From the NCBI RefSeq assembly GCF_900573985.1, contig NZ_UWOK01000001.1:186001-250000 (forward strand): a DNA stretch of 64,000 nt. The letters run 5' to 3'. Position 1 is the stretch's first letter. Each line of letters opens with the position of its first letter. A program made the position numbers and the translations under genes. The notes below the pieces were generated by a model that did not search any database, had not been told where the DNA came from, and was given only the letters and a program-made list of their open reading frames with translations. Of this stretch, positions 37,642 to 48,052 are shown in pieces. The stretch comes from Campylobacter showae. Lineage in GTDB: Bacteria > Campylobacterota > Campylobacteria > Campylobacterales > Campylobacteraceae.

Positions 37642-37665
37642 ATGGTGCGGATGAAAGGACTTGAA
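37642..37665. repeat. Left attachment site (att) of the element
   Basis: 24 bp identical to 47967-47990, corresponding to the 3' end of tRNA-Leu (read on the minus strand). The match ends at the following base on both sides. The intact tRNA is retained at the right end. Confidence 0.88.
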
Positions 37666-37812: not shown

Positions 37813-37836
37813 GGTTACACTTTTGGTTACACTTTT
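37813..37836 (+). promoter_or_regulatory. Probable integrase arm-type sites, left end
   Basis: Two adjacent copies of GGTTACACTTTT, 27 bp before the integrase start. Closely related copies occur only near the right end (47691-47712 and 47871-47891). This pairing at both ends is the usual layout of arm-type binding sites for tyrosine recombinases. Confidence 0.6.
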
Positions 37837-37863: not shown

Positions 37864-38979
37864 ATGAGAGACATAAAATCAAAACGTTACGCCGGCGTTT
37901 ATTACAGATTGCTAGACGACGGAAGCAAGACGTATTACATCATTTATAAGCACCCAATCGAGGACAAAAACGTCAGATTAAAAATCGGAAGCGACAAAGA
38001 CGGCTTTAATGAGGCATATTGCCACAACAAAAGAGCGGAAATTTTAACAAAACTTAGGCTGGGCGAGGATTTGCGCATACCAATCATAGCCAAAAAACAG
38101 CACAAAACAACGCTTAACGAGATAGCAGAGCTATATTTTGAGAGCAAAGCGATAGCTGGCGAAACTATCAGTATAAAAGAGCGCAAAAGCAAATATAACA
38201 GGCACTTGCGCGAGACGCTGGGCGAAAAAGCCTTAACGTCTATCAAAAAAGAGGACGTTATAAGACTACAAAGAGAGCTTATAAAAGCAGACTACGCAAA
38301 CGCCACGATAGGCAATATTTTACAGCTGGGCGCGACAGTGTTTTATTATGCGATACGTCAGGGGCTTTATAATTCGGCAAATCCTTTTATAAGCGTGGAG
38401 CACAAGAAAACGCCGAACGCCCGCATAAGATATCTAAATTTAGACGAGTTGCAAAGGCTCAAAGACAGCGTTAAAAACGATGAGGTTTTATATCTTTTCG
38501 TTTTGATTTCGGTTACTACGGGCGCGAGGCTAGAGGGCGTTTTAAACATCCAAAATAAAGACATAGACTATAACGCGGAGCTAATCAACATTTACGACTT
38601 TAAGAGCAAGGACAGATACGCCGGAGCTTTGACGGATGAGGTTAAAAATATACTAAAAAGCCGAAAACGGGCTAAAGATAACAACTACGTTATCAGCTAC
38701 GAGGACGGCGAAAAGTTGGATAAAAAGCGAATACAGCGCAGATTAAAGCCAATACTAGACAGGCTTTTTAATAAAGACCTAGCGAGGAGCGACAGAGATA
38801 ACCGCGTAGTAATTCACACTCTACGGCACACATTTGCAAGCCTTTTAGCCATACAGGGCACGCCGATTTATACCATACAAAAGCTTTTAAATCATAAAGA
38901 TATAAAGCAAACTTCGCGCTACGCTAAGCTATCGCCAAAAAGCGGAGCGGATGAGGCTAAAAAGCTATTCGATAAGTAA
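37864..38979 (+). CDS. Tyrosine-type site-specific integrase
   Basis: A 371-residue phage-type integrase. The N-terminal arm-binding region (KTYYIIYKHPIEDKNVRLKI) is followed by a SAM-like core-binding domain (TTLNEIAELYFESKAIAGE) and the catalytic domain with TTGARLEGVL (Arg), HTLRHTFASL (His-x-x-Arg), KLLNHKDIKQ (His) and TSRYAKLS (nucleophilic Tyr). All catalytic residues are present, so it should be active. It lies beside the left att and reads inwards. Its targets are the 24-bp core in tRNA-Leu and the GGTTACACTT arm repeats. Confidence 0.93.
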   Translation: MRDIKSKRYAGVYYRLLDDGSKTYYIIYKHPIEDKNVRLKIGSDKDGFNEAYCHNKRAEILTKLRLGEDLRIPIIAKKQHKTTLNEIAELYFESKAIAGETISIKERKSKYNRHLRETLGEKALTSIKKEDVIRLQRELIKADYANATIGNILQLGATVFYYAIRQGLYNSANPFISVEHKKTPNARIRYLNLDELQRLKDSVKNDEVLYLFVLISVTTGARLEGVLNIQNKDIDYNAELINIYDFKSKDRYAGALTDEVKNILKSRKRAKDNNYVISYEDGEKLDKKRIQRRLKPILDRLFNKDLARSDRDNRVVIHTLRHTFASLLAIQGTPIYTIQKLLNHKDIKQTSRYAKLSPKSGADEAKKLFDK

Positions 38980-38996: not shown

Positions 38997-39527
38997 ATGA
39001 CAAACGAGAGACTAAAAGAGCTATTTTCGGCTAAAAGAATAAGCGGATACGCAAGCGAGGCAGAGCATAGGGATAATTTTTTACTTATGCAAAGAATAGC
39101 CCCTAAAATCGGCATTTTAGAGATTATCACGCGCAACAAAGTGGCCGAAATTTTAGACATTACGGATGATGATTTTATCTCAAAACAAAGCTTAGGCTAC
39201 TGGGTTAAGACTATCGACGCGGAAAAAATACATAATGCGCTAATCAACCTAAGAGCCGTTGATTTTCGCAAATATTCAAGTTTTAACAGGCTGGGTAAAA
39301 GCGATATTCCAAACTTTAAAAAAGTGGGCGCGTGCTACTGGCTTATTTTGACGATAAGAAACCGCGCTTTTCATTTTGAAAATCTATACAAGCTAAACGA
39401 TAACGGCGCACCGCGCATTATAACGAAGCTAAACAACGAAATTATAGGCGTAGCCCCCGAGATGATTGAGGCGTTTATTAATGACTTTTTGGCTTGTTTC
39501 GGCGATGATGTGTCGGAGTATTTATAA
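38997..39527 (+). CDS. Abi-like protein with HEPN RNase motif
   Basis: A 176-residue protein following the integrase by 17 bp. The layout matches Abi_2/AbiF-type abortive infection proteins: an N-terminal helical region with YASEAEHRDNFLLMQRIAPK, the segment DAEKIHNALINLRAVDF, and near the C-terminus LILTIRNRAFHFENLYKLN. The last contains R-x4-H (RNRAFH), the catalytic signature of HEPN ribonucleases. It may protect the host or the element from competing phages. It could also act inside the element's own control. Carriage next to an integrase is typical of element-borne defence genes. Confidence 0.65.
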   Translation: MTNERLKELFSAKRISGYASEAEHRDNFLLMQRIAPKIGILEIITRNKVAEILDITDDDFISKQSLGYWVKTIDAEKIHNALINLRAVDFRKYSSFNRLGKSDIPNFKKVGACYWLILTIRNRAFHFENLYKLNDNGAPRIITKLNNEIIGVAPEMIEAFINDFLACFGDDVSEYL

Positions 39528-39533
39528 GAAAGC

Positions 39534-39552
39534 GAGGCCGATAAGTGGCCTC
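39534..39552 (+). terminator. Hairpin after the Abi-like gene
   Basis: GAGGCC / GGCCTC with a 7-nt loop, 7 bp after the stop; only a short T-rich tail. Separates the integrase-abi unit from the monomer cluster. Confidence 0.45.
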
Positions 39553-39619
39553 TTGAATGTAGGCGTATTATAACAAATAAGCGTTAAAATGTCAATTAGT
39601 GGGAAATAGTAACCACTAG

Positions 39620-39756
39620 CGACAAGACGTAACCGGCTTGAACAAGAAATAAGGCCTGTAGCAAGAAATCCGGCCGGCGCAACAGAATAAGGCCAACTGT
39701 AAGAAATCCGGGAACTTGCATAGAATAAGGCCTGTAGCAATAAATCCGGAGCTTAG
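39620..39756. repeat. Small cluster of 19-bp monomers in front of the zinc-ribbon gene
   Basis: Contains, in order, CAAGAAATCCGGCCGGCGC, AACAGAATAAGGCCAACTG, TAAGAAATCCGGGAACTTG, CATAGAATAAGGCCTGTAG and CAATAAATCCGGAGCTTAG, plus worn copies to the left. The first four are monomers 1-4 of the 190-bp satellite at 46 kb in the same order. The last monomer ends one base before the TATAAT box at 39758, so the repeats cover the -35 region. They may be operators. Confidence 0.85.
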
Positions 39757-39757
39757 A

Positions 39758-39763
39758 TATAAT
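39758..39763 (+). promoter_or_regulatory. -10 box (TATAAT) of the zinc-ribbon gene
   Basis: TATAAT 24 bp before ATG 39788, with AAAAAAGG as ribosome binding site between. The 19-bp monomer cluster lies against its upstream side. Confidence 0.6.
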
Positions 39764-39787: not shown

Positions 39788-39991
39788 ATGTGCCCTAAAT
39801 GCAAAAGCGAGAACGTCGCTACGGTTGCGACTATTAACGGGTTGTGGGTAGAGCGGTTTAAAAAGTGTCGCGCGTGCGGGCATAATTTCCAGACTTGCGA
39901 GCTGGTGCGAGTTGATATAAAGCTAGTCGAATATCAAAAAGAGGTTTTGAGCATATTACAAAGGGGTCACAGGAGACAAACGCGGGCGTAA
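39788..39991 (+). CDS. Small zinc-ribbon protein (Ogr/Delta-like or NrdR-like)
   Basis: A 67-residue protein with two CxxC knuckles, MCPKCKSENVATV and FKKCRACGHNF, then a basic C-terminal tail (RGHRRQTRA). Knuckle spacing and the ERFKKCRACGHNFQTCELV strand resemble phage Ogr/Delta activators and the NrdR zinc ribbon. I take ATG 39788 because a -10 box and ribosome site fit it, whereas earlier in-frame codons would read through the repeats. A regulator that binds the adjacent 19-bp monomers is a reasonable guess. Confidence 0.65.
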   Translation: MCPKCKSENVATVATINGLWVERFKKCRACGHNFQTCELVRVDIKLVEYQKEVLSILQRGHRRQTRA

Positions 39992-41828: not shown

Positions 41829-41849
41829 AATGACACCTTTTATTTTTTA

Positions 41850-41945
41850 TATTAAGGTAAATTTTATTTGATATTATATAAAATTAGATTTGATATTATA
41901 TTAAATAAATATATTCTATTTTTTATATTATATCACATTTTACTT
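41850..41945. promoter_or_regulatory. Divergent operator/promoter region of the XRE switch
   Basis: TGATATTATAT occurs at 41869 and 41891 (22 bp apart, about two helical turns), and the similar ATATTATATCA lies inverted at 41925-41935. Together they are likely binding sites for the adjacent repressor and overlap probable -10 elements in both directions. Confidence 0.5.
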
Positions 41946-43492: not shown

Positions 43493-43681
43493 ATGGCAAA
43501 CGCTAGCAAGATGTTTTATACATATAAGGAAATAGCGCATATTCTTGGCATAAGTCAAGAGCGAGTGAGACAAATAGAAAACATCGCACTGGCAAAGCTG
43601 GCGCACCCAAAAAACGCGCAAAAATGGCGAAACATCAGGGAAACTATAGAGGAAATGGAAAATCAAAAGGCTAAAGAATGA
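43493..43681 (+). CDS. Small sigma-70 region-4-like HTH protein
   Basis: A 62-residue protein with YTYKEIAHILGISQERVRQI then ENIALAKL, which is almost exactly the -35-recognition helix-turn-helix of sigma-70 region 4.2, followed by a helical tail. A free-standing region 4 could act as an activator, anti-sigma or late-gene switch of the element. The nearby textbook TTGACA-17-TATAAT promoter makes promoter recognition relevant. Confidence 0.6.
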   Translation: MANASKMFYTYKEIAHILGISQERVRQIENIALAKLAHPKNAQKWRNIRETIEEMENQKAKE

Positions 43682-43705: not shown

Positions 43706-43924
43706 CTATTTTTTATTTACGTAAGGCTCAAAAATGGCTACGGCTTTGTCTAAGTCGCGAGCTTTGGCGTAATTTTCAAGCCACGAGGATACCCACGACG
43801 GAACAGGCTTTACTTCGTCGCGCCAATTTGAAACAGAGCTATACGCAAGACCCGTCAAGTCGCAAAAATCTTGCCTGCTCAACCCAAGGCTTTTTAATTT
43901 TTTATCAAACTCTTGTTTATTCAT
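43706..43924 (-). CDS. Small Cro/XRE-like phage regulator
   Basis: A 72-residue protein with FDKKLKSLGLSRQDFCDLTG and LAYSSVSNWRDEVKPVPSWV, a helix-turn-helix of the type found in small phage regulators. AAAAAGGATAGCAGA precedes ATG 43924. It is divergent from the operon at 44093, with repeated AGAGTAAAT words between. I prefer this strand over a plus-strand frame at 43678-43977, whose protein has no sensible composition or start site. Confidence 0.65.
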   Translation of the reverse strand: MNKQEFDKKLKSLGLSRQDFCDLTGLAYSSVSNWRDEVKPVPSWVSSWLENYAKARDLDKAVAIFEPYVNKK

Positions 43925-44013
43925 TCTGCTATCCTTTTTATAAAGATAGTATCAAAAATTACCTAAAGAGTAAATAAAAATGCCAATAAGTTATCTAAAA
44001 AGTAAAAATAGTC

Positions 44014-44042
44014 TTGACAATCTTATCAATAGAGTATATAAT
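44014..44042 (+). promoter_or_regulatory. Consensus sigma-70 promoter of the replication operon
   Basis: TTGACA (44014-44019), exactly 17 bp, TATAAT (44037-44042). Such a complete -35 box is unusual in Campylobacter, whose housekeeping promoters generally lack one. CTAAAGAGTAAAT (about 43962) and CTCAAAGAGTAAAT (about 44058) flank it and are probable operators of the small regulator at 43706. Confidence 0.75.
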
Positions 44043-44092: not shown

Positions 44093-44407
44093 ATGAGCGA
44101 AGCAAACCTAACGGCAAACGTGAGCCAAAAGCACGTAAATCAAGACAACGCGGGCGCGATAGTCTTTTACGCCGATTACGGCCTAAAAAACGCAACAGCT
44201 AGAATAGACGGCTTAGGCGCGATGATATCGGCTTATTTAAAAAATTTAGCAAACGTCGGCGTATTGTCAGAGGACGACCTATTTAAAAATGAAATTTTAG
44301 GTGTCCAGGACGTGTTTTTAAAGGCTATAAACGAGGAAATAGACGAGCTTACGTCTATAAAAAACGGCATATTGTCGGCTATAGGACACACCAAAAGCGA
44401 GGCGTAA
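44093..44407 (+). CDS. Element operon protein, unknown (first gene)
   Basis: 104 residues, soluble, mostly helical after residue 35 (LGAMISAYLKNLANVGVLSE, VFLKAINEEIDELTSIKNGI). AGGAGC precedes ATG 44093. First gene behind the consensus promoter and leading to the probable replication initiator. Function not recognised. Confidence 0.55.
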   Translation: MSEANLTANVSQKHVNQDNAGAIVFYADYGLKNATARIDGLGAMISAYLKNLANVGVLSEDDLFKNEILGVQDVFLKAINEEIDELTSIKNGILSAIGHTKSEA

Positions 44408-44409
44408 AA

Positions 44410-44622
44410 ATGGATAATACGGACAAAATCGAAATACTTAATCAGGCTTTAGAAAATTTGCAGGGCGCACAGACGCTTTTACTGGCTTTGGCACGGTATC
44501 TGCGCGAGAACGCAGACGAGACGGCAAACGCGCTTTTTGTTATCGAGGGCACAATTTTTCAAAACGTGAGCGATTTAAAAAGCGTCTTTGAGGACGAATT
44601 AACAGCATACGCCAAAATATGA
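44410..44622 (+). CDS. Element operon protein, unknown (second gene)
   Basis: 70-residue acidic helical protein (KIEILNQALENLQGAQTLLL, ARYLRENADETANALFVIEG). It follows the previous gene by two bases and is presumably co-translated. Composition fits a small adaptor or antitoxin-like helical protein, but no family is recognised. Confidence 0.5.
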   Translation: MDNTDKIEILNQALENLQGAQTLLLALARYLRENADETANALFVIEGTIFQNVSDLKSVFEDELTAYAKI

Positions 44623-44638
44623 AAGCGAGGGGCGAATA

Positions 44639-45043
44639 ATGATTAATCAGCTGGAAATCGACAAGGCTTTTTATAAGAGTATCGAGCGTTTTAAATCGAG
44701 CGACGAGCAAAGCAAAACGAAGCAAGAACGCGCGAGCTGGAGCGAATACGACCTATTAAATCAAATAATCAATGAGGCCATAGCAAACGAGGCGCAAAGA
44801 ATACAAAGGCGAGAGCGACCAAGCGAAAACGGCTTTATAGGGCGAATATTAGAAAACGAAACGACGAAAATCAAAGCCTTAAGCGCGCTTGTAGTCGCGT
44901 TTTTATCTCAACTGGAAAACAACGAGAACGTAGACGAGCCGTTAAAATCGGACGCTAGAGGCATTAAGCAAGTAGCGCGCGAGAGCATAGGCGAGCATTT
45001 GCGAGAACTTGAGGGCATACGCGCACGGCTAGCGAATATCTAA
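44639..45043 (+). CDS. Element operon protein, unknown (third gene)
   Basis: 134 residues, charged and helical (YDLLNQIINEAIANEAQRIQ, then RRERP). A more hydrophobic helix follows (IKALSALVVAFLSQLE), then ESIGEHLRELEGIRARLA. AGCGAGGGGCG is the upstream ribosome site. It lies directly before the probable initiator gene and could be an accessory replication or copy-control factor; this is positional inference only. Confidence 0.5.
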   Translation: MINQLEIDKAFYKSIERFKSSDEQSKTKQERASWSEYDLLNQIINEAIANEAQRIQRRERPSENGFIGRILENETTKIKALSALVVAFLSQLENNENVDEPLKSDARGIKQVARESIGEHLRELEGIRARLANI

Positions 45044-45058
45044 AGAGGGTTAAATTTT

Positions 45059-46018
45059 ATGATATTTAGCGTGGAAAACACCATTTTTAATAATCGCGGT
45101 ATCGATACAGTGCGTCAAGTCGCGCACTATTCCACGCTAAAAAATATCATAGTCAAACACGGGCTTACGATACGAACAGAACTTAAAAATTTACCTATAA
45201 ATCCGTATTTGGCGAGCATAGAACAGAGCCTAAAAAATGACCCGAAAAACAGATACAAAAAAGAGGCTTTTAAGCCCGTTATCGAATATGTCAAAATCTC
45301 ACAGGGTAGCGGACTAAGTAACTATATCATCATTATTAAAAATATCCCGCTACTCTTTGAACACGCGCTTGCACACAAAAAAGCGAAAGACACGTTTTGC
45401 TTAGTCGTATATACGGGGCTACATCAACCGACAAAGCACATCAGCAACGAAGCCGTAAAACTAATATCGAAACTTTTAAAACGCAAGACCTTTACGCTTT
45501 TAAACTGCGACGTAGCGACGGACTATAAAGACGCAAAAGATATCGACTACAGGCGCAAAGAGGAGTTTAAAAGCAGGCTAGGCGAAGTATGCGACAACAG
45601 CTATATTATTAAACAAAATAGCCTATACTGCAACCAAACGACGCTAAAAGGCGTTGATAAAATACTACTTTATGACAAATACAAAAAGCAAACCGTGCAC
45701 CAAAAACAAAGGCTACACGTAAGCCTTAAGGAGTGGAAACGCCTCGAAATAACATTAACACCCAAAGGCAAAACGGACTTTATGAGCTTTATAAAAACCG
45801 AGCTTGACGAAGCTATCCAAAAAGCCGACGTAATCGCTAAAGGGCTACGGATAGCGGGCTTTAAGGATGATTATTTGCTCTATCAAATCAAAGCTTTAAC
45901 GGACGCGAGAACGCTAAATAAAAAGCCGGCGACCGCGCGTTTTAACTCAAAGCAAGCATTAGAGAGTTTTATTGTCTCGCGCAGGCGCAAGAGCCTAGCG
46001 CAAACGGACGATTTTTAG
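45059..46018 (+). CDS. Probable replication initiator of the element
   Basis: A 319-residue basic protein. The segment KILLYDKYKKQ...LKEWKRLEITL resembles the YDK...RxE strand pair of Rep_trans and filamentous-phage gpII/X-type initiators. An N-terminal region (TIRTELKNLPINPYLASIEQ) and a basic tail (SRRRKSLAQTDDF) complete it. I cannot place the catalytic Tyr with confidence, so a theta-type iteron-binding initiator is the main alternative. A large inverted repeat covers its first codons, and 19-bp monomers begin within 12 bp of its stop. Both are what one expects around an initiator gene. Confidence 0.5.
   Translation: MIFSVENTIFNNRGIDTVRQVAHYSTLKNIIVKHGLTIRTELKNLPINPYLASIEQSLKNDPKNRYKKEAFKPVIEYVKISQGSGLSNYIIIIKNIPLLFEHALAHKKAKDTFCLVVYTGLHQPTKHISNEAVKLISKLLKRKTFTLLNCDVATDYKDAKDIDYRRKEEFKSRLGEVCDNSYIIKQNSLYCNQTTLKGVDKILLYDKYKKQTVHQKQRLHVSLKEWKRLEITLTPKGKTDFMSFIKTELDEAIQKADVIAKGLRIAGFKDDYLLYQIKALTDARTLNKKPATARFNSKQALESFIVSRRRKSLAQTDDF
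45061..45148. repeat. Large inverted repeat at the 5' end of the initiator gene
   Basis: GATATTTAGCGTGGAA (45061-45076) pairs with TTCCACGCT(AAA)AAATATC (45130-45148). Inside the loop GTGCG / CGCAC (about 45110-45126) can form a second stem. A cruciform here could be a nicking origin or an mRNA structure that limits translation of the initiator. Confidence 0.6.
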
Positions 46019-46029
46019 CCAGCCAACAG

Positions 46030-47177
46030 CAAGAAATCCGGCCGGCGCAACAGAATAAGGCCAACTGTAAGAAATCCGGGAACTTGCATAGAATAAGGCT
46101 TGTAGCAACAAATCAAGCGAGCTCAACAGAATAGAGCCAACAACAAGAAATCAAGCAAATTTAACCCAATCCGGGAGCTTGAACACAGCTCGAGCTTGAG
46201 CAGGAAATAAGGCCGGCAACAAGAAATCCGGCCGGCGCAACAGAATAAGGCCAACTGTAAGAAATCCGGGAACTTGCATAGAATAAGGCTTGTAGCAACA
46301 AATCAAGCGAGCTCAACAGAATAGAGCCAACAACAAGAAATCAAGCAAATTTAACCCAATCCGGGAGCTTGAACACAGCTCGAGCTTGAGCAGGAAATAA
46401 GGCCGGCAACAAGAAATCCGGCCGGCGCAACAGAATAAGGCCAACTGTAAGAAATCCGGGAACTTGCATAGAATAAGGCTTGTAGCAACAAATCAAGCGA
46501 GCTCAACAGAATAGAGCCAACAACAAGAAATCAAGCAAATTTAACCCAATCCGGGAGCTTGAACACAGCTCGAGCTTGAGCAGGAAATAAGGCCGGCAAC
46601 AAGAAATCCGGCCGGCGCAACAGAATAAGGCCAACTGTAAGAAATCCGGGAACTTGCATAGAATAAGGCTTGTAGCAACAAATCAAGCGAGCTCAACAGA
46701 ATAGAGCCAACAACAAGAAATCAAGCAAATTTAACCCAATCCGGGAGCTTGAACACAGCTCGAGCTTGAGCAGGAAATAAGGCCGGCAACAAGAAATCCG
46801 GCCGGCGCAACAGAATAAGGCCAACTGTAAGAAATCCGGGAACTTGCATAGAATAAGGCTTGTAGCAACAAATCAAGCGAGCTCAACAGAATAGAGCCAA
46901 CAACAAGAAATCAAGCAAATTTAACCCAATCCGGGAGCTTGAACACAGCTCGAGCTTGAGCAGGAAATAAGGCCGGCAACAAGAAATCCGGCCGGCGCAA
47001 CAGAATAAGGCCAACTGTAAGAAATCCGGGAACTTGCATAGAATAAGGCCTGTAGCAACAAATCAAGCGAGCTCAACAGAATAGAGCCAACAACAAGAAA
47101 TCAAGCAAATTTAACCCAATCCGGGAGCTTGAACACAGCTCGAGCTTGAGCAGGAAATAAGGCCGGCAACAAGAAAT
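46030..47177. repeat. 190-bp higher-order satellite array built from 19-bp monomers
   Basis: Six complete 190-bp units start at 46030, 46220, 46410, 46600, 46790 and 46980, followed by 8 bp of a seventh. By eye they are identical except for one T to C change in unit 6. Each unit divides evenly into ten 19-bp monomers with the rough consensus CAAGAAAT followed by a GGCC-type segment. Neither 190 nor 19 is a multiple of three, and no frame stays open, so it is non-coding. The monomers within a unit are far more diverged than the units are from each other, meaning an old 19-bp array was recently amplified in blocks of ten. Confidence 0.92.
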
Positions 47178-47966
47178 TAAAGAACTTTAATACACATAGC
47201 TTATAAAATTTCAATATTAAAAAATGCTTGTGTATCAAAAAAGAGTAAAATTTTATACACAAAACAGCAAAGCAATCAAAAGTAAAATATATTTTCAGCT
47301 CAAAAGCATTTCAAAACTTAAATTAAGAAATCGCAAATTGTAAAATATATTTTTCGTGAAACTTAAAAAAAATGGCTCAAAACTTAAAAAATACAATCAA
47401 AAAATATCATTTTTCACACGCTTAAGTTTCACGGGATTTTTTACTATTGAAAACAGCGGGCTATATGCGCCGAAAGTGCGGTAAAATCGATGTTTTAAAA
47501 AAAGTAGTATTGAAAACAATTATTTTCAAGACAAGAACAGTTTTTTTGGATAACCTTAAGTAAAAATATTAGTATATAAAGGCATATTGTTTCAAGACGC
47601 TATTATAATATCTTTTTTGCTTAAAATAACTTGAAATATGTTTTTAATGAGATATAGGCGCAAATCGACTTTAAAAATATAGGCTTTGCAGGTTACACTT
47701 ATTTACACTTTTAAAAATCCTACGTTCTACAGCTTGATTATCGCGCGCGTAAAGAGGCGGTTAAAATGCATATAATCTTGTATTTTCTCGTTTTGGCTTG
47801 TGAGTTACAAAAAGCCATATATTAGCAAAACGCGACTATATCAGCTTTTTAAGGGGCTTTTTACTCCATTTTTTACACTTAGGTTACACTTGATATATTT
47901 TTCAATTCTTAAGAGGTGTTTCAAATGCCATATTTTAGGGGTTTTAAAGGGGATTTTTAATAGTAA
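47178..47966. other. Right end of the element, AT-rich, with integrase arm sites
   Basis: About 790 bp without a gene. GGTTACACTT and TTTACACTTTT lie at 47691-47712 and again TTTTACACTT-AGGTTACACTT at 47871-47891, matching the tandem sites before the integrase. An inverted TACACAAGC/GCTTGTGTA-type pair lies at about 47192-47240. Otherwise only homopolymer-rich sequence. Confidence 0.55.
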
Positions 47967-47967
47967 A

Positions 47968-48052
47968 TGGTGCGGATGAAAGGACTTGAACCTTCACGCC
48001 GTGGGGCACCAGATCCTAAGTCTGGCGTGTCTGCCAATTTCACCACATCCGC
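47968..48052 (-). tRNA. tRNA-Leu (TAG anticodon)
   Basis: An 85-nt class II tRNA with a long variable arm, anticodon stem CCAGA/TCTGG around CTTAGGA (anticodon TAG) and encoded CCA. Its 3' end is the integration site of the 10.3-kb element. The gene is intact because the element brings or restores the 3' end. First of five clustered tRNAs on this strand. Confidence 0.93.

Follow-up and report, generated by a model that had tools for sequence, protein, structure and literature searches.

We analyzed a 64,000-nucleotide stretch of a Campylobacter showae genome (RefSeq assembly GCF_900573985.1, contig NZ_UWOK01000001.1, positions 186,001 to 250,000; hereafter the window), in which an element of approximately 10.35 kb is inserted in a tRNA-Leu gene and bounded by 24-bp repeats at 37642 and 47967. 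The element harbors two arrays of a 19-bp monomer: a small one (array A) and a large one (array B), the latter beginning 11 bp past the stop codon of a gene that is predicted to encode a Rep_trans rolling-circle initiator (Table 1). With moderate confidence we interpret array B as a cis-acting, origin-associated protein-binding array, of the iteron or "bind locus" type, belonging to a small integrated replicon.

Tandem Repeats Finder reported a period of 190 with 6.0 copies and a 99% match over array B. When the units were aligned, units 1-5 were identical and unit 6 carried a single T to C change, in agreement with the original prediction made from the DNA letters of the window. Self-match within the 190-bp unit, averaged over multiples of 19, was 0.476. 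In 2000 dinucleotide shuffles the corresponding value was 0.282 (standard deviation 0.017, maximum 0.353), and the top self-match at any period of 10-40 across all shuffles (0.397) was still below that of the real unit. The autocorrelation check that had been proposed for the 19-bp periodicity thus gave a clear signal; periods 38 and 57 tied with 19 (0.490 and 0.478). The monomers within a unit matched each other at only about 48%, with A at positions 2 and 6 in all ten and one letter kept in nine of ten at positions 7, 8, and 12. Scored with a monomer matrix, nine monomers of the unit reached 13.7-18.6 bits and the tenth, AACACAGCTCGAGCTTGAG, 3.5 bits. Because one monomer in ten scores this low, the approximately 60 monomers first proposed are better counted as 54 clear and 6 degenerate ones. 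The longest stop-free runs were 37 codons on the + strand and 59 on the - strand, with stops in all frames, and we therefore rejected a coding array. The form, near-identical large units of diverged monomers, is shared with alpha satellite DNA; scale and context differ, and the likeness is an analogy only.

The second array, at 39643-39756, had been overlooked in the original prediction. Five of its monomers scored above 15 bits. Arrays A and B share a 79-bp identical run (39662 vs. 46980) that includes the private base of unit 6, whereas the identical runs between array A and the other units were 70-72 bp long. The 79-bp run and its private base therefore point to recent sequence exchange between the two arrays.

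The gene in front of array B was compared with its relatives in an alignment of 65 family sequences, in which D16, D151, Y190, Y205, K207, W226, R228, and E230 were conserved. The catalytic tyrosine Y205 was kept in 65/65 sequences and the lysine two residues on, K207, in 98% (motif III YxK present). The metal-binding acids, assigned by motif position, were kept in 100% (D16), 92% (D151), and 100% (E230). These residues were placed by comparison with the Rep_trans motifs RxD, T/SxY/ExG, and YxKxxE, as given in excerpts of the published descriptions. Of the full motif letters, D, S, Y, Y, and K are retained. In the structure model the best matches were Rep_trans initiators, the crescent fold was present, and 4 of the 65 family members matched Rep_trans itself. 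The initiator assignment of the original prediction was thereby upheld. The predicted protein resembles RepD/RepDE, RepSTK1, and the MOBT relaxases in the catalytic tyrosine, the three metal-binding acids, the WxRxE motif, and the fold, and differs from them at three motif letters, since its family has other residues in place of the motif I R, the motif II G, and the motif III E.

A decayed sister element was identified at the same tRNA-Leu in another Campylobacter genome (G432). It retains an integrase fragment (74% protein identity to the window integrase) and the C-terminal end of the initiator (55% identical over residues 275-312), followed by an array of 19-bp monomers and by a right end reaching the same tRNA-Leu with the same tRNA order. 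The sister array, found once in that genome, comprises about seven monomers that phase with the window family, and has no 190-bp unit. The two monomer consensuses agree at 15/19 positions, and the conserved positions coincide in phase only. Directly adjoining array B is a non-coding block that is 93% identical to the sister in 47240-47319 (80 bp). Elsewhere identity was 74.8% in the integrase fragment, 64.5% in the initiator end, and 28-68% in comparison windows from 47360 to 47879. The block was present in 1 of 153 family genomes, which was G432. Its inverted repeat begins 51 bp past array B, is nearly unchanged in the sister, and encloses a DnaA-box-like TTATACACA at 47253. The TTATNCACA box occurs three times in the window, and the copy in the block matches the position of the sole copy in the 18-kb sister locus. 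In epsilonproteobacteria the box may have a different sequence. The region 47001-48000 is 31% GC.

Because the core positions, phase, and strand of the monomer are kept in both species, because the array lies behind an initiator gene, and because a conserved inverted-repeat block adjoins it, array B reads as a DNA-binding origin array, and a replication-linked binding role fits best what can be read from the DNA. The monomer would be a protein-binding site with a core A at position 2, AAT at 6-8, and a G/A-rich stretch at 11-12. Together with the inverted-repeat block, array B would form, or directly flank, the replication origin behind the Rep_trans initiator gene. The likeliest binder would be the initiator itself, as in rolling-circle "bind" loci or iterons, and another protein of the element is possible. 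In this lineage, a six-fold tandem duplication of a 190-bp block may recently have enlarged an ancestral short array of approximately 7-10 monomers. The added binding sites could buffer the initiator and hence the copy number. We infer each of these steps, namely the binding, the origin position, the rationing by titration, and the duplication by replication slippage or recombination.

Several observations weigh against this interpretation. We know of no Rep_trans initiators with long iteron arrays. Three motif letters deviate: the R of RxD is absent from motif I, the G of motif II is N, and the E of motif III is K. The 45059 product itself gave no Rep_trans match in Pfam at E 0.1, and the initiator had no match among solved structures in an iterative sequence search. 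The comparison has one decayed sister as its sole basis. Loose tandem-repeat finding in 45 initiator or integrase loci (several of them duplicates, and five with the integrase only) recovered the array family in two, both of which were the G432 locus.

Four known systems bear on the layout. The P1 incA locus consists of nine similar 19-bp iterons behind a rep gene, with a RepA of another family. Array B is similar in having direct repeats of 19 bp that follow a rep gene, and differs in the Rep_trans signature of the initiator and in the low match among monomers. Given a Rep_trans-kind initiator and strongly diverged monomers, the parallel with P1 incA drawn in the original prediction holds as a resemblance and not as membership. 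The other three systems are compared as described in excerpts of the cited papers. At oriV of Salmonella genomic island 1 (SGI1), four 17-bp iterons directly follow rep and are accompanied by a DnaA box and AT-rich flanks (PMC7433901); SGI1 likewise is an integrated, excisable element with repeats directly behind the initiator gene, unlike the window in that the latter has about 60 diverged monomers in 190-bp blocks and an initiator of the Rep_trans kind. At the pMV158 double-strand origin, tandem direct repeats bind the initiator and an inverted repeat lies nearby (PMC9943647). The inverted repeat past array B recalls this bind locus plus nick hairpin; pMV158 has an HUH initiator and three 11-bp repeats. 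The origin of the satellite PLE has initiator-bound iterons that differ among isolates through duplication (PMC8263062). PLE shares with our element the form of a satellite-type island with iteron-type repeats, there three semi-palindromic iterons of approximately 30 bp and a RepA_N initiator.

Alternatively, array B could be a locus for copy control or titration, comparable to P1 incA or to the Vibrio chromid's ori2-inc repeats, with the true origin elsewhere. We consider this unlikely, but it has points in its favor: 19-bp direct repeats stand behind the initiator gene, the two arrays are unequal (5-6 vs. 60 monomers), and in iteron replicons, repeats of this sort have an established role in titration and handcuffing (PMC6090056). 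However, the strongest conservation directly adjoins array B, which favors an origin there over a copy-control locus with a distant origin, and no Rep_3-type initiator was seen.

We regard it as improbable that slippage or recombination produced the 190-bp order neutrally from an otherwise functional short array, or that the copy number is an assembly error. A passive recent expansion would predict what we found, that is five of six units identical and a sister without the 190-bp order, and the run shared by array A and unit 6 is a sign of sequence exchange. Short-read assembly, however, would be expected to collapse rather than create six copies. Moreover, the monomer family and the neighboring block are conserved, and therefore only the expansion could be neutral.

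The original prediction had also suggested a structured RNA. For the + strand of the 190-bp unit, two runs gave 6/400 and 3/400 column shuffles with folds as low, and z against dinucleotide shuffles was -2.0; the - strand folded no better than shuffles. For the + strands of array A and the sister array, 71/400 and 167/400 column shuffles folded as low. When only the order of the monomers was shuffled, 93/400 shuffles reached folds as low. A longer stretch around array A gave z = -2.3, but this stretch includes the AbiF hairpin described below. Rfam searches near the arrays returned sub-threshold matches only. As the signal is confined to the + strand of the 190-bp unit, structure is not common to the arrays, and we rejected RNA structure as their main function; the signal of that strand remains.

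Array A is preceded by an AbiF-like HEPN gene (38997-39595) with a fold match to 8vz6 and R-N-x-A-F-H in 44/44 aligned sequences. Relatives were found in 16 of 48 Campylobacter-group genomes, and no HEPN was found in viral contigs. On the opposite strand at the 3' end of the gene (39552-39534) lies a conserved small stem-loop, with a convergent promoter. This stem-loop was present at 17 of the 18 loci listed, the window included, and its stem sequences vary across Campylobacter loci with pairing retained. In C. difficile the Rfam abiF RNA lies upstream of the gene, and Rfam abiF had no match at the AbiF-like locus. Judged from these sequences, the stem-loop is a candidate antitoxin RNA, unlike Rfam abiF, and a better antitoxin candidate than the array. 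An RNA antitoxin role of the arrays, with repeats neutralizing the neighboring toxin as in type III systems, is accordingly very doubtful: the examined flanks of AbiF-like relatives had no comparable array, 17 of 18 loci carry the stem-loop instead, array A, the sister array, and the order-only monomer shuffle did not separate from their controls, and the Rfam match is absent. With no such array in the flanks examined and a repeat RNA structure that is not conserved, we discarded this explanation.

The least probable alternative is a partition (centromere-like) or packaging site: some plasmids use long iteron arrays as centromeres, and two small helix-turn-helix proteins have weak terminase-small-subunit matches (phrog_141, 0.003; phrog_7067, 0.0086), but no ParA, ParM, TubZ, or ParB-like family was recognized in the 14 open reading frames of the element that were scanned. 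Of the small proteins encoded ahead of the initiator, three could not be assigned to a family.

The two arrays might also form a circuit in which one protein binds both and couples replication to restraint of the abortive-infection toxin, a speculation to which we give little weight. The sites in array A lie between the promoter of the candidate antitoxin RNA and the rightward -10 of the gene for a 67-amino-acid, weakly NrdR-like zinc-ribbon protein (39788-39991), whose start is 32 bp past array A. At the origin, array B with its 60 sites would be a sink that grows with copy number. Toxin restraint would then be set by how far the element has replicated, at a threshold tuned through the satellite-like expansion. 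If true, higher-order repeats would here make up a sensor of copy number.

The array DNA had zero matches in phage and plasmid records. Across 398 Campylobacterales genomes nothing reached E 1e-3 (best 0.00124; 264/398 matched at E 1, which is chance level), and two patterns had no match in viral contigs. These searches are insensitive, as the array A query came back blank in 48 genomes although G432 with its diverged array was among them. A 14-base pattern gave at least 120 chance-like matches in viral contigs and was not used. In one further locus an AT-rich period-19 stretch lies 415 bp behind an initiator relative, with a sequence not comparable to the array. The suggested search of other Campylobacter elements thus yielded one sister with about seven monomers and no further array family, and the satellite-like order, real here, was seen in no other element. 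Among the titles listed in literature searches, none was on higher-order repeats in bacteria, which shows little.

The remaining gene content is that of an integrative element. Of the seven TTACACTT copies in the window, six are no more than 280 bp from an att core, and those near both cores are probable integrase arm sites. A helix-turn-helix repressor gave an RstR-type match below the cut-off (6.3e-11; 42.5 bits vs. 80), and an excisionase-like protein matched phrog_66 (4.2e-5). AT-rich 22- and 27-bp repeats between these two genes (41847-41909) are a likely operator. In 43706-44042, a small leftward helix-turn-helix protein (phrog_8898, 4.1e-25) faces the perfect promoter of the initiator gene run, with AT-rich repeated words between its gene and the promoter; the pair is a probable second switch. 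A 62-amino-acid protein (43493-43681) has sigma-70 region 4 as its sole match (4.4e-11). All four + strand copies of AAAATGTCGGA in the window are in the element (40415, 40543, 40577, and 40602), and the sister locus has one, immediately 3' of the initiator end. The endonuclease IV of the window is 80% identical to that of another genome (G266), which marks the host as Campylobacter-like.

Table 1. Coordinates of the element's features in the window.
Feature	Position	Strand	Description
attL core	37642..37665	+	24 bp identical to 3' end of tRNA-Leu at attR; longest common substring of both ends
Tyrosine integrase	37864..38979	+	Phage_integrase 1.1e-21, phrog_1 2.6e-54
Promoter	39567..39595	-	TTGACA-17-TATAAT, 12/12; leftward, 47 bp from array A
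Array A	39643..39756	+	five clear and one weaker 19-bp monomer; matrix scan, phasing
TATAAT	39758-39763	rightward	one base past array A; read by eye, no matching first hexamer in promoter scan
Promoter	44014..44042	+	TTGACA-17-TATAAT, 12/12; precedes gene run 44093-46018, initiator its last gene
Predicted Rep_trans-kind rolling-circle initiator	45059..46018	+	319 amino acids; conserved residues, fold match, family hits
Array B	46030..47177	+	six 190-bp units of ten 19-bp monomers each, plus 8 bp
Conserved non-coding block	47178..47333		candidate origin core, adjoins array B
Inverted repeat TTGTGTATCAAA / TTTTATACACAA	47228..47262		12-nucleotide arms, 92% complementary, 11 nucleotides apart
TTACACTT copies	47693, 47703, 47873, 47884 (47693..47891)	+	four in attR; two in attL at 37815, 37827
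attR core	47967..47990	+	inside tRNA-Leu (tag anticodon)

Beyond the original prediction, our analysis adds array A, the sister with about seven monomers, and the block conserved at 93% over 80 bp. Large arrays of higher-order repeats typify eukaryotic centromeres, and the same form is found here on a bacterial mobile element, beside a recognizable initiator gene and a conserved block. Since the sister lacks the higher order, the step from a short functional array to a satellite-like array is testable in a 10-kb system. The implications of the initiator assignment extend to its family, of which 170 relatives were found at E 1e-3. Those in CJIE4 and Helicobacter prophages are annotated as hypothetical only, with one labelled as a transcriptional regulator. 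Many "hypothetical" proteins of epsilonproteobacterial prophages are probably rolling-circle initiators.
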